Assembly: GCA_945869365.1 (NCBI GenBank)
Contig: CAMBOW010000099.1
Coordinates: forward strand, 1-5,771
Reading direction: 5' to 3'
Origin: Flavobacterium psychrophilum
Lineage (GTDB): Bacteria > Bacteroidota > Bacteroidia > Flavobacteriales > Flavobacteriaceae
DNA: 5,771 nucleotides
Shown here: positions 1-4,687 of the stretch, piece by piece
Numbering within the stretch: position 1 is the first letter of the stretch
How the letters are laid out: the number at the start of each line of letters is the position of its first letter
Translations under genes and position numbers: made by a program
Notes under the pieces: generated by a model
Told to the model about the DNA's origin: nothing
Seen by the model: only the letters and a program-made list of their open reading frames with translations
Database searches by the model: none

Positions 1-1776
1 GCACATCCGCGAATTATTCAAGAATCAGTCCCCTTTACCATGGAAGCCGACTCCTTAAACGCTTCTATTTTAGGCGAAGATGCCGTTCCTGGTACTCCCG
101 AATTTGATTTATTCATCAACCAAGCGCGCAGCGAAATCACGGTAAAAGCGGGTCAAAAATGTACGGCCATTCGTAGAATGATTGTCCCAGCTAACGTAAT
201 GGATGAGGTACAAATTGCTTTGGGAAAAGCCTTAGACAAAGTAACGGTAGGCGATCCTCGACTCAAAGAGGTGCGTATGGGCGCATTGGTGAGCAAAGAC
301 CAAGTGAATGTGCTGAAAGGAAGAGTCCAGGAATTAAGCCAAACGGCTCAACTCGTTTATGGCGATTTAGAAAAAATCAACTTGATAGGTGCCGATGCAA
401 AAGGAGCGTTTGTATCCCCAATTGTATTGCGCGAAGACCATCCGTTTACCAATTTGTCCGTACACGAAACCGAAGCCTTTGGACCAGTTTCGACCTTGAT
501 GCCCTATGCAAATCTAGACGAAGCCATTGCATTGGCGCAACTGGGTAAAGGTTCTTTGGTGTCGTCGATTGTGACCAATTCAGATGCGATTGCCAAAGAC
601 TATGTGGTGAATGCCGCTTCACACCACGGAAGAATTTTAGTGCTCAACCGCGAAAATGCCAAACAAAGTACCGGACACGGTTCACCCTTGCCGCAGTTGG
701 TGCATGGAGGACCTGGACGTGCCGGTGGTGGAGAAGAAATGGGCGGTGTGCGCGGAATTACGCATTACATGCAGCGCTGCGCCATACAAGGTTCGCCCAC
801 TACATTAACTGAAATTACCGGAATTTACCAAGCCAATTCGGCCTACAAAGAAATTACCCAACATCCGTTTCAGTACCATTGGGAAGACATTCAACCGGGC
901 ATGTCGTTGCGTACGCACAACAGAACAGTTACCGATACCGACATCATCAATTTTGCCAACATTACCTGGGATCATTTTTATGCCCACACCGATATTACTT
1001 CGCTTGACGGCAGTATTTTCAAGAAACGAACGGCTCACGGCTACTTTATTTTGGCCGCTGCAGCAGGCTTGTTTGTCTACCCCAACAAAGGGCCAGTGGC
1101 TGCCAATTACGGCTTGGAAGAATGCCGTTTCTTGCGTCCCATTTACCACAACGACACCGTGTATGTGCGCCTCACCTGCAAACAAAAAGTAGATCGTGAC
1201 GTGGCTTCGGCTGAACATCCGAGCGGCATTGTGAAATGGTTTGTAGAGGTGTTTGATACGACCGATGAGTTGGTGGCTGTGGCAACCATTCTCACGATGG
1301 TGCAAAAGAAACAGGAAGTTTTGGTTGAAATGACCGACGAAAAAATAGCTGAATGCCTCCATAAATTAACTGAAAATTCAAAACCAAGTTGGGGCATTTT
1401 AACGCCACAGCACCTGTTGGAACATTTGGAACATGGCTATAAAATCATGTCGGGAGAAATCCAGGATTTTGACATTGTCACGCCCGAAAAGATTTTGGAT
1501 AAAGTGCACAACACCTTATACAATTACGAGAAATTCCCCATGGGAACCAATTTCCCCACCATGAAAAAAGGCGAAGTTGAAAAATTAATTCATCCCGATT
1601 TTGACACGGCCAAAGCCAAATTTTTTGAAGCCAGAGCACAGTATAAAGCCTTTTTCAACGAAAATCCAGAGGCCATTTTAAAGAATATGGTTTTTGGCGA
1701 ATTGAATAAATATGAATCGTACTTACTAGAACGAAAACATTTGAATCATCACTTTGAACAATTTAATATTTTGTAA
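1..1776 (+). CDS. paaZ: PaaZ, bifunctional oxepin-CoA hydrolase / semialdehyde dehydrogenase (5' end outside the window), with C-terminal DUF1569-like extension
   Basis: PaaZ opens the oxepin-CoA ring with its R-specific hydratase domain and oxidises the resulting aldehyde with its NADP-dependent aldehyde dehydrogenase domain in aerobic phenylacetate catabolism; it is cytosolic. The frame is open from base 1, so the ATG at 40 is internal. The segment FTMEADSL has the catalytic Glu (43-45), and [10 protein letters not shown] has the nucleophilic Cys (160-162), 39 residues later as in E. coli PaaZ (E256/C295). The dehydrogenase part ends near the [20 protein letters not shown] motif. A MaoC-like hotdog hydratase follows (about 865-1329) with the WDHFYAH motif, Asp at 970-972 and His at 985-987. 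By alignment to E. coli about 241 residues are missing, giving about 830 in full against 681 in E. coli. The excess is a 148-residue tail (1330-1773) resembling DUF1569/DinB-like proteins, with His-rich ends ([11 protein letters not shown] and [10 protein letters not shown]). Identity of the first two domains is very secure; the tail assignment is less so. Confidence 0.95.
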
Positions 1777-3355: not shown

Positions 3356-3418
3356 TTAGTCGTTAGTGATAAGTTATTAGTAATTTACTTGATGACTTTC
3401 GACTTTCGACTTTAAGAC
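3356..3418 (+). repeat. Spacer of nine degenerate 7-base repeats between paaY and the E2 gene
   Basis: Reading in sevens from the base after the paaY stop gives an unbroken array: TTAGTCG, TTAGTGA, then TAAGTTA, TTAGTAA, two divergent units, then TTCGACT twice (3398-3411) and TTAAGAC. The TTCGACT part is the reverse complement of the AAAGTCG-type units found inside the E2 gene at 3909-3943. Only nine bases, including an in-frame TAA at 3419-3421, separate the array from the E2 ATG. No bacteroidal promoter (TAnnTTTG) is convincing here. I see no gene in the spacer. Confidence 0.7.
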
Positions 3419-3427
3419 TAAAACAAT

Positions 3428-4687
3428 ATGTTCGAATTCAAACTGCCCAAAATGGGTGAAAGCATTACCGAAGCGACCATCCTCAACTGGGTTAAAGCAG
3501 TAGGCGATTACGCAGAAGCCGAGGAAATTATTTTGGAAGTCGCCACCGACAAGGTAGACAGCGAAGTGGCCTCGCCAGTTTCGGGCGTGATTACTGAAAT
3601 CTGTTTTCAGAAAAACGAGGTGGTGGAAGTAGGTTCCATCTTAGCTCTAATTGAGGTGGTAGGTGAAAAGGTGGTAGGTAGTAGAAAAGAAGAGGTAGTT
3701 ACTAACACAACAACCGACAACCGACAACCGATAACTGATAACCGACAACGGCCAACGGACAACTTCATCAGTCCTCTCATTATTTCCATCGCCCAAAAAG
3801 AAAACCTATCCATAGAAGAATTACAAACCATCCCGGGTTCTGGTGCCGACGGGCGTTTGCAAAAAAGCGATGTATTCACTTATCTTAATAATAGAAAATA
3901 TCCACTTCAAAGTCAAAAGTCAAAAGTCGAAAGTCCAAAGTCAGCGTTTCCAGCTCCAAAAATTAATTTCGTAGAAGGCAAAGACCGCATCGTCGAAATG
4001 GACCGCATGCGCAAGCTCATTGCCGACCACATGGTCTATTCCAAGCAGACGTCGCCGCATGTGACTTCGTATATTGAGGTAGATGTAACCAATTTGGTGC
4101 AATGGCGCAACGACAACAAAGATGCTTTTCAGGCTAAACACCAGCAAAAACTCACGTTTACCCCCGTTTTTGTACAGGCCGTAGCCCAAGCTATTGTTGA
4201 TTTTCCGATGATTAATGTGTCGGTGGATGAGAAAAATATTATCGTTCACCAAGATATTAATATCGGAATGGCCACCGCCTTGCCCTCTGGAAATTTAATT
4301 GTTCCGGTGGTGAAAAATGCCAATCAAAAAGACTTGCTTGCCTTGGCCACAGACGTGAATACTTTGGCTGAAGCGGCTCGAACGAATCGATTAAAACCCG
4401 AACAAATACAAGGTAGTACCTTCACGATTTCCAATGTGGGCACCTTTGGCAGTTTAATGGGAACGCCCATTATCAACCAACCCGAAGTGGCCATTTTGGC
4501 TTTTGGCCTGATTAAAAAACGAGCCGAAGTGCTCAGCACACCCCAAGGCGACGAAATTGCCATCCGCAGCATGATGTATTTGTCACTTTCCTTTGATCAC
4601 CGTGTAGTCGATGGCTTTTTGGGCGGATCCTTTTTGCGCAAAGTTGGCGATTACCTCGAACAATTTACCACTCAACAAACTATTTAA
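3428..4687 (+). CDS. Dihydrolipoamide acyltransferase (E2) of a 2-oxoacid dehydrogenase complex, probably branched-chain type
   Basis: E2 forms the core of the dehydrogenase complex and moves the acyl group from lipoyl-lysine to CoA. In order: lipoyl domain (residues 1-77) with K42 in EVATDKVDSEV as the lipoylation site; linker 1 (78-113); peripheral-subunit-binding domain (about 114-152, with SPLIISIAQKENL and GADGRLQKSDV); linker 2 (153-185); and catalytic domain (about 186-419) with the DHRVVDG motif, H391 and D395. The PKMGESITEATI start and ATDKVDSEV signature resemble flavobacterial branched-chain E2 rather than 2-oxoglutarate E2 (which has a DSDKA-type site) or pyruvate E2 (ETDKA). The ilvE gene 14 bases downstream agrees. 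The start is fixed by an in-frame TAA at 3419-3421 and alignment of the lipoyl domain. Oddly, both linkers are encoded by short DNA repeats (listed separately) instead of the usual Ala/Pro-rich sequence. E2 identity is very sure; substrate class about 0.75. E1 and E3 genes are not in the window. Confidence 0.95.
   Translation: MFEFKLPKMGESITEATILNWVKAVGDYAEAEEIILEVATDKVDSEVASPVSGVITEICFQKNEVVEVGSILALIEVVGEKVVGSRKEEVVTNTTTDNRQPITDNRQRPTDNFISPLIISIAQKENLSIEELQTIPGSGADGRLQKSDVFTYLNNRKYPLQSQKSKVESPKSAFPAPKINFVEGKDRIVEMDRMRKLIADHMVYSKQTSPHVTSYIEVDVTNLVQWRNDNKDAFQAKHQQKLTFTPVFVQAVAQAIVDFPMINVSVDEKNIIVHQDINIGMATALPSGNLIVPVVKNANQKDLLALATDVNTLAEAARTNRLKPEQIQGSTFTISNVGTFGSLMGTPIINQPEVAILAFGLIKKRAEVLSTPQGDEIAIRSMMYLSLSFDHRVVDGFLGGSFLRKVGDYLEQFTTQQTI
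3655..3684 (+). repeat. Intragenic copy of the GGTGGTAGG repeat, at the start of E2 linker 1
   Basis: GGTGGTAGG occurs at 3655-3663 and again at 3670-3678, followed by TAG, inside the E2 gene just after the lipoyl domain. The same nine-base word occurs twice in the spacer before paaY (2686-2694 and 2700-2708). The spacing is 15 bases here, a whole number of codons, and 14 in the spacer. It encodes VVGEKVVGSR. Used in the E2 frame, the TAG within the word is not read as a stop. Confidence 0.65.
3713..3763 (+). repeat. Intragenic array of seven 7-base repeats (ACCGACA type) encoding E2 linker 1
   Basis: Units of seven run in phase from 3713 to 3761: ACCGACA twice, then ACCGATA, ACTGATA, ACCGACA and two diverged units, ending in AC. 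Because seven is not divisible by three, three units make 21 bases, and the protein repeats every seven residues (TDNRQPI, then TDNRQRP, then TDN; residues 96-112). The other two frames are closed by stops at 3732-3734 and 3736-3738; the E2 frame alone is open. The array separates the lipoyl domain from the subunit-binding domain. Confidence 0.85.
3909..3943 (+). repeat. Intragenic array of five 7-base repeats (AAAGTCN) encoding E2 linker 2
   Basis: Five perfect-phase units of AAAGTCN (N = A, A, G, C, A) lie between the subunit-binding and catalytic domains of E2 and encode a Ser/Lys-rich stretch (SQKSKVESPKS, residues 162-172). The complementary form, CGACTTT, makes up part of the spacer just upstream of this gene (3394-3413). 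In this orientation the unit has no stop codon in any frame; in the opposite orientation TGACTTT would supply TGA. Confidence 0.85.

Follow-up and report, generated by a model that had tools for sequence, protein, structure and literature searches.

Linkers of an E2 acyltransferase and loops of other Flavobacterium enzymes as likely slots for exchangeable 7-bp and palindromic repeats

Both interdomain linkers of an E2 acyltransferase, and recurring sites in other enzymes of Flavobacterium, hold 7-bp tandem arrays in some species and dispersed palindromic repeats in others, with units that vary between species at the same site. We think it somewhat probable (roughly 0.55) that these linkers and loops are slots that have been overwritten in short tracts from dispersed repeats or from other strains, with selection keeping the protein. 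A preliminary description of the DNA studied here had reported one array, in the first linker of the E2 protein, and read it as a dispersed repeat that was tolerated as a linker. The relatives support that reading, but it is too narrow: the second linker is filled likewise, many relatives have filled linkers, whose units vary from species to species and are exchanged as blocks, and such sites exist in other enzymes, where some of the fills are palindromic repeats.

The window, by which we mean the whole stretch of 5,771 nucleotides of Flavobacterium psychrophilum that was analysed, encodes by open reading frames and Pfam matches an aldehyde dehydrogenase-MaoC protein (its start cut off), an enoyl-CoA hydratase, a hexapeptide-repeat protein, the E2 acyltransferase and a class IV aminotransferase. 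The E2 gene lies at 3428–4687 on the plus strand and encodes 419 residues, comprising a lipoyl domain (residues 3–75, positions 3434–3652, PF00364), an E3-binding domain (residues 113–149, positions 3764–3874, PF02817, 24.2 bits against a cut-off of 23.7) and a catalytic domain (residues 185–414, positions 3980–4669, PF00198). The order lipoyl, E3-binding, acyltransferase is that of a 2-oxo acid dehydrogenase E2, to which we assign the protein; its acyltransferase activity and assembly into a complex are predicted. Its nearest matches lie on contigs titled Flavobacterium or Flavobacteriaceae, with 86, 84 and 82% identity over the best segment. A structure model of the E2 protein had a mean pLDDT of 43 and was left unused. 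The aldehyde dehydrogenase-MaoC protein (window 1–1776) ends in about 190 further residues for which Pfam gives no match at E 0.001.

Tandem Repeats Finder (TRF) reports the array described earlier at 3710–3763 on the plus strand, with period 7, 7.7 copies and 85% matches. Because it codes for residues 95–112, between the lipoyl and E3-binding domains placed by Pfam, it constitutes linker 1, the position that had been proposed for it. In register from 3709 it reads AACAACC GACAACC GACAACC GATAACT GATAACC GACAACG GCCAACG GACAACT, and the E2 frame translates as TDNRQPITDNRQRPTDN. The other two sense frames contain stops, so that the E2 frame is indeed the only open one; the frames differ only because the units have drifted, since a perfect stop-free 7-bp array encodes one cyclic 7-residue peptide in all three frames. 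Two arrays of the gene were absent from the preliminary description. The weaker, of AGGTGGT type, lies on the plus strand at the start of linker 1 (3654–3684, residues 76–86; TRF, 72% matches, 8% indels) and was not recovered by a stricter lag-7 scan, and the other, of AAAGTCA type, lies on the plus strand in linker 2 (3909–3943, residues 161–172; TRF, 5 copies, 89% matches) and was found by the lag-7 scan also. The likeness to nearby spacers that had been pointed out is borne out by TRF, which reports a repeat of GGTGGTAGG type with period 14 at 2685–2714, a 7-bp array AACCTACAACCCAC at 2720–2753, directly upstream of the gene at 2759, and a 7-bp array GACTTTC at 3394–3413, upstream of the E2 gene. 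By sequence comparison the reverse complement of GACTTTC is the unit type of the linker-2 array, and linker 1 is GT-rich at its start and CA-rich at its end, resembling the spacer 2685–2753.

These tandem 7-bp units exceed chance. In the E2 gene the lag-7 score peaks at 29.5, against a maximum of 14.5 in 2000 codon shuffles of the gene and at most 22.5 in 5000 synonymous-codon redraws of the linker peptide; since both fall short, the 7-bp period resides in the DNA and is not dictated by the peptide. That selection maintains the in-gene arrays for a function of the DNA or RNA, as a hairpin or binding site, is very improbable: the spacers at 2680–2760 and 3353–3430 fold better than shuffles (z −2.24 and −2.98), as such a function would predict, but for the E2 linkers this is not so (z +1.15 and −0.43), for which reason a hairpin role of the coding arrays was rejected, and the units are not conserved between species. 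In the foldable spacers, repeat arms of opposite sense lie between a stop and the following start.

We scanned 66 Flavobacterium-like loci (the window, L001–L064 and L072), with genes assigned by simple ORF calls, as in the outgroup and F. lacus scans below; the close relatives are mostly metagenome-derived. The scan found 208 arrays at lag 7, at most 17 at each of the other lags from 4 to 13, and 145 at the harmonic lag of 14, and one mononucleotide shuffle per locus gave none at any lag. The two E2 linkers accounted for 80 of the 94 coding lag-7 arrays (50 in linker 1, 30 in linker 2), and the remainder of E2 had none; the other 14 fell in ORF calls of other genes, 11 of them no farther than a tenth of the ORF from its end. 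Linker 1 carried an array in 38 of the 66 loci, linker 2 in 30 and either linker in 47; by the threshold used, the other 19 had no E2 array. Heptamer arrays are common elsewhere in related genomes, the source genome being covered by the window alone, so that the lack of further arrays that would have counted against the preliminary reading is not seen. Fifteen outgroup loci (13 titled Aquimarina, about 171 kb) yielded one coding array and ten others, and their aligned linkers, inspected by eye, held no peptide of TDNRQ type, in keeping with the earlier view of the segment as a repeat that entered or expanded there. Three of the Flavobacterium-like E2 loci (L025, L026 and L033) are on contigs titled Bifidobacterium breve or Sphingobacterium thalpophilum, record labels that for this reason look wrong.

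The units of the E2 arrays differ between species and comprise 134 cyclic types; they are T-poor on the sense strand and encode peptides mostly rich in T, N, Q, P, K, R, S and E. Within these loci, 60 of the 134 types, making up 73% of unit occurrences in E2 arrays, are also present in non-E2 arrays. The T content is 7.7% in E2 arrays against 25.7% in arrays between co-directional genes, and 53 of 89 of the latter have stops in all three sense frames, which argues that the reading frame filters the contents of the slots.

Linker fills change rapidly and in whole blocks. In four pairs of loci with E2 cores 0.92–0.94 identical (L002/L003, L001/L003, L010/L014 and L004/L006), one linker is 0.85–0.98 identical and the other 0.47–0.62. 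In a set of 62 E2 proteins whose cores are 0.90–1.00 identical to the window's, three linker-1 classes, into which all but one protein fall, are joined with four linker-2 classes in 11 of the 12 combinations, and protein pairs with cores 0.992–0.994 identical carry a differing linker. The protein nearest to the window's (P0002) has the window's linkers, and P0008, with a core 0.992 identical to that of P0002, differs from it in linker 1. A quick tree of 65 cores (L072, with an incomplete start, omitted; 23 of 62 inner branches poorly supported) requires at least 27 class changes for linker 1 and at least 23 for linker 2, counts that carry no shuffle baseline. Of 42 variable core columns, 70 and 71 track the linker-1 class (V 0.66 and 0.89) and 151 and 154 the linker-2 class (V 0.82 and 0.77), and more distant columns have values of 0.14–0.63. 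Linker classes evidently reassort among close relatives, and the exchanged tract, judged from the core columns, appears to be short yet to extend beyond the array.

Array sites are not confined to this protein. In 1.43 Mb of the 3.5-Mb genome of F. lacus, an isolate, there are 52 lag-7 arrays, 31 outside ORF calls and 21 within them, several of these at ORF ends. The hosts identified by Pfam include MnmE, EPSP synthase (four arrays), B12-dependent methionine synthase, an aminotransferase I/II that from its motifs we take to be AONS-like, RmlD, a phosphoglucomutase-family enzyme and a two-domain FAD/FMN protein in which the array sits between the domains. In 23 of 30 genomes EPSP synthase (AroA) has arrays, which fall at four recurring sites and vary in their units by species. 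The AONS-like enzyme has them in 9 of 26, at one common site, with a second array elsewhere in one row. An identity filter left 29 of 30 sequences in the AroA set (L207 out) and 26 of 27 in the AONS-like set (L234 out); the paralogues L235–L237 are not in the AONS-like counts. A strict pattern, ACAACCNACAACCNACAAC, is found in 56 of 150 sampled genomes of the genus of F. lacus. Across the E2 families of six genomes, with PdhC-like and SucB-like named by resemblance, arrays are present in the orthologues of the window's E2 in 6 of 6, in the two-lipoyl PdhC-like E2 in 1 of 6, in a second E2 in 1 of 5 and in SucB-like E2s in 0 of 6 (fragment L123 omitted).

The AroA slots are nearly constant in length, slot 3 having 17 residues in 88 of 120. 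A slot value below 0.5 was found for 51 of 179 AroA pairs, an overcount because an absent N terminus was scored as 0 for its slot. According to a structure model (mean pLDDT 74), slot 1 would fall in a low-confidence N terminus, slot 2 at a helix end and the next loop, slot 3 in a strand and the next loop, and slot 4 in a β-hairpin. A conserved phase of a CAAnnnn skeleton at the AroA sites was dropped: the qualifying rows numbered only 2 of 19 and 8 of 29, and no clean result emerged. The B12-dependent methionine synthase of F. lacus (L125:1195–4269, minus strand) has a DUF559 domain (residues 430–535) between two B12-binding domains. One metagenome-assembled genome (MAG) has a second AroA copy (G006:C78:10983–12347), in three matched pieces within one open frame of 468 residues, with 7-bp repeats at the first gap. 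An AONS-like match at G009:C11:31488–32630 contains one TAA.

The same sites also hold repeats of another kind: where some species have 7-bp arrays, other species have dispersed palindromes. Motif matches, some of them weak, place palindromic repeats within E2 linkers in 11 of 66 loci, in 8 of 29 AroA rows and in the AONS-like slot in 6 of 26; of the AroA matches, four lie in a fifth loop near residue 360 and the remainder in slots 1–3. The slot-3 fill of F. aquatile AroA is one of 24 genomic matches to its repeat (at most 3 mismatches), and that of G016 is one of 10 matches of a different repeat, which in G004 occupies both E2 linker 1 and the AONS-like slot and in G007 the AONS-like slot. 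A hairpin, CCCCTCCTTTGGAGGGG, is in AroA of G004 and G020. Reversed-pattern controls for these palindromic-repeat genome searches gave no matches. In E2 linker 1 of L054 and L063 the terminator-like palindromes CCCGAGACTTCGGGA and CCTGCCGATCAAGGCAGG adjoin in frame; L057, with a core 0.947–0.983 identical to theirs, is without those two.

Local slippage, or transient misalignment by 7 nt, could have given birth to arrays and homogenized them in place at any site that the protein can spare, without sequence being copied in from outside. This account would fit the dominance of period 7 in coding and spacer arrays alike and the near-constant AroA slot lengths, as well as the recurrence of changed bases: within arrays a changed base is repeated 7 positions on at rates of 0.604 (E2, n = 4219), 0.708 (AroA, n = 2425) and 0.649 (AONS-like, n = 37), against about 0.03 outside arrays, the row pairs not being independent. 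Slippage alone is insufficient, however, because palindromic repeats with genomic copies stand in the array sites; linker blocks moreover swap together with a few flanking residues, and AroA units are shared with the remainder of the genome. We regard it as an unlikely explanation by itself.

The similarity of AroA units to arrays elsewhere in their own genome is 0.174 against 0.050 (0 of 20000 permutations), and they are nearer to their own genome than to that of the nearest relative (p 0.0115, one of three tests). Sharing between AroA and E2 beyond the nearest relative is suggestive (p 0.084), and in G023 AroA and both E2 linkers share the unit AACCCGC. When up to 3 mismatches are allowed, the 31-bp linker-2 array of L001 and L003, which is not the window's, recurs in 11 of 12 genomes, and reversed controls gave no match. 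Thirty of these places were retrieved, some of which overlap; 17 are in ORFs of at least 90 residues, and 7 of the 17 are E2 linkers. E2 units resemble the other arrays of their own genome no more than they do the nearest relative's (0.076 against 0.083, p 0.72), and E2 shares no units with the AONS-like gene (0.114 against 0.121). A modest permutation signal for E2 units drawn from their own genome was removed by the nearest-relative control, and that candidate was rejected. Because E2 units are equally near the relative's genome, the support in E2 for exchange between strains is no weaker than that for copying within the genome, and the E2 result fits strain exchange or common descent better. 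No donor-recipient event was caught in the comparisons.

This E2 result, with the travelling of flank residues with the linker class and the occurrence of four linker-2 classes in 11 of 12 combinations with linker 1, would also follow if ancient linker alleles were merely shuffled by homologous recombination among strains or species and none were newly written. We consider this rather improbable, and a little more so than slippage, since the E2 arrays across species contain 134 cyclic unit types, one unit type occurs in several genes of one genome (AACCCGC in G023) and the palindromic fills are dispersed in their own genome.

Many rows are metagenome-derived and the MAG G006 has two AroA loci, so that repeats might have misled short-read assembly into chimeric linkers. 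As an origin of the arrays this artefact is disfavoured and has little probability, given that 10 of the 17 loci (among the 66) without MAG in their title carry E2 arrays, that several enzyme genes of the isolate F. lacus contain arrays and that open frames are maintained; the swaps between 99%-identical cores may be chimeric.

In the overwriting of slots that we favour, repeats of a genome would be copied into them through template switching or ectopic conversion, fills would spread between strains by homologous exchange, and misalignment by 7 nt would maintain the uniformity of arrays. Selection would filter the fills for frame, lack of stops and a tolerant site. Both the arrival of fills by copying and the role of selection as a mere filter are what we infer from these patterns. 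Overwriting would be tolerated because linkers and loops presumably demand little sequence, and the single cyclic peptide of a stop-free 7-bp unit in every frame gives this tolerance a simple base. A stronger version, which we hold tentatively, is that core enzymes carry fixed repeat-exchange slots, which ongoing copying rewrites with any dispersed repeat at hand, array or palindrome, so that non-coding repeats would go on supplying new peptide to central enzymes and close strains would differ in how their linkers are combined.

Dispersed repeats in frame in conserved genes, as found here, have their nearest precedents in palindromic elements of Rickettsia and in REPs. Rickettsia palindromic elements (RPEs) are dispersed repeats in frame in conserved metabolic genes (PMC10969869), and REPs occur inside ORFs of several species, with different REPs at about the same recB site in two Xanthomonas species (PMC3733652). 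As far as the available portions of these papers go, both resemble the present case in that dispersed non-coding repeats are in frame in conserved genes, and recB is a precedent for filling of the same site. RPEs differ as palindromes of about 150 bp with a peptide of their own, whereas the fills here are mostly many-unit 7-bp tandem arrays, tens of bases long; the window's E2 arrays are tandem direct repeats, with palindromes only in some relatives. Unlike what those portions describe for RPEs, the sites here are fixed, arrays and palindromes of different families interchange and linker classes appear to recombine. TAACTGA heptamers are 7-bp direct repeats in spacers of Beggiatoaceae and some Bacteroidetes, with some in ORFs, and repeats between units of modular proteins were argued to be perhaps tolerated (MacGregor 2015, PMC4679880). 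In the available portion of that paper they are alike in being 7-bp direct repeats of spacers and some ORFs and differ in being a single fixed unit mainly upstream of starts, with ORF cases that mostly concern protein ends or hypothetical proteins. Units of ACCGACA and ACCGATA type predominate in the window array, in which TAACTGA occurs once. Mrazek and colleagues (as told in PMC4679880) reported that tandem units of 7 nt are in excess in some genomes, for which polymerase slippage was proposed. The tandem excess is common to both; theirs is a genome statistic, and that partial account mentions no fixed protein slots with interchangeable fills. A search of the open-licence PMC literature listed no paper on in-gene 7-bp arrays of Flavobacterium, which does not prove that none exists. 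As far as this search shows, what is new is that core enzymes carry a set of recurring slots whose fills, 7-bp or palindromic, are interchangeable, and that the linkers recombine freely.

If the overwriting of slots is true, non-coding repeat DNA would be a steady source of protein sequence in housekeeping enzymes, and the natural set of exchanged linkers would reveal which sequences can join the domains of a multidomain enzyme. The coding slots would also log unit changes against a conserved background, so that the question of why 7 nt dominates in some bacteria would become directly testable.
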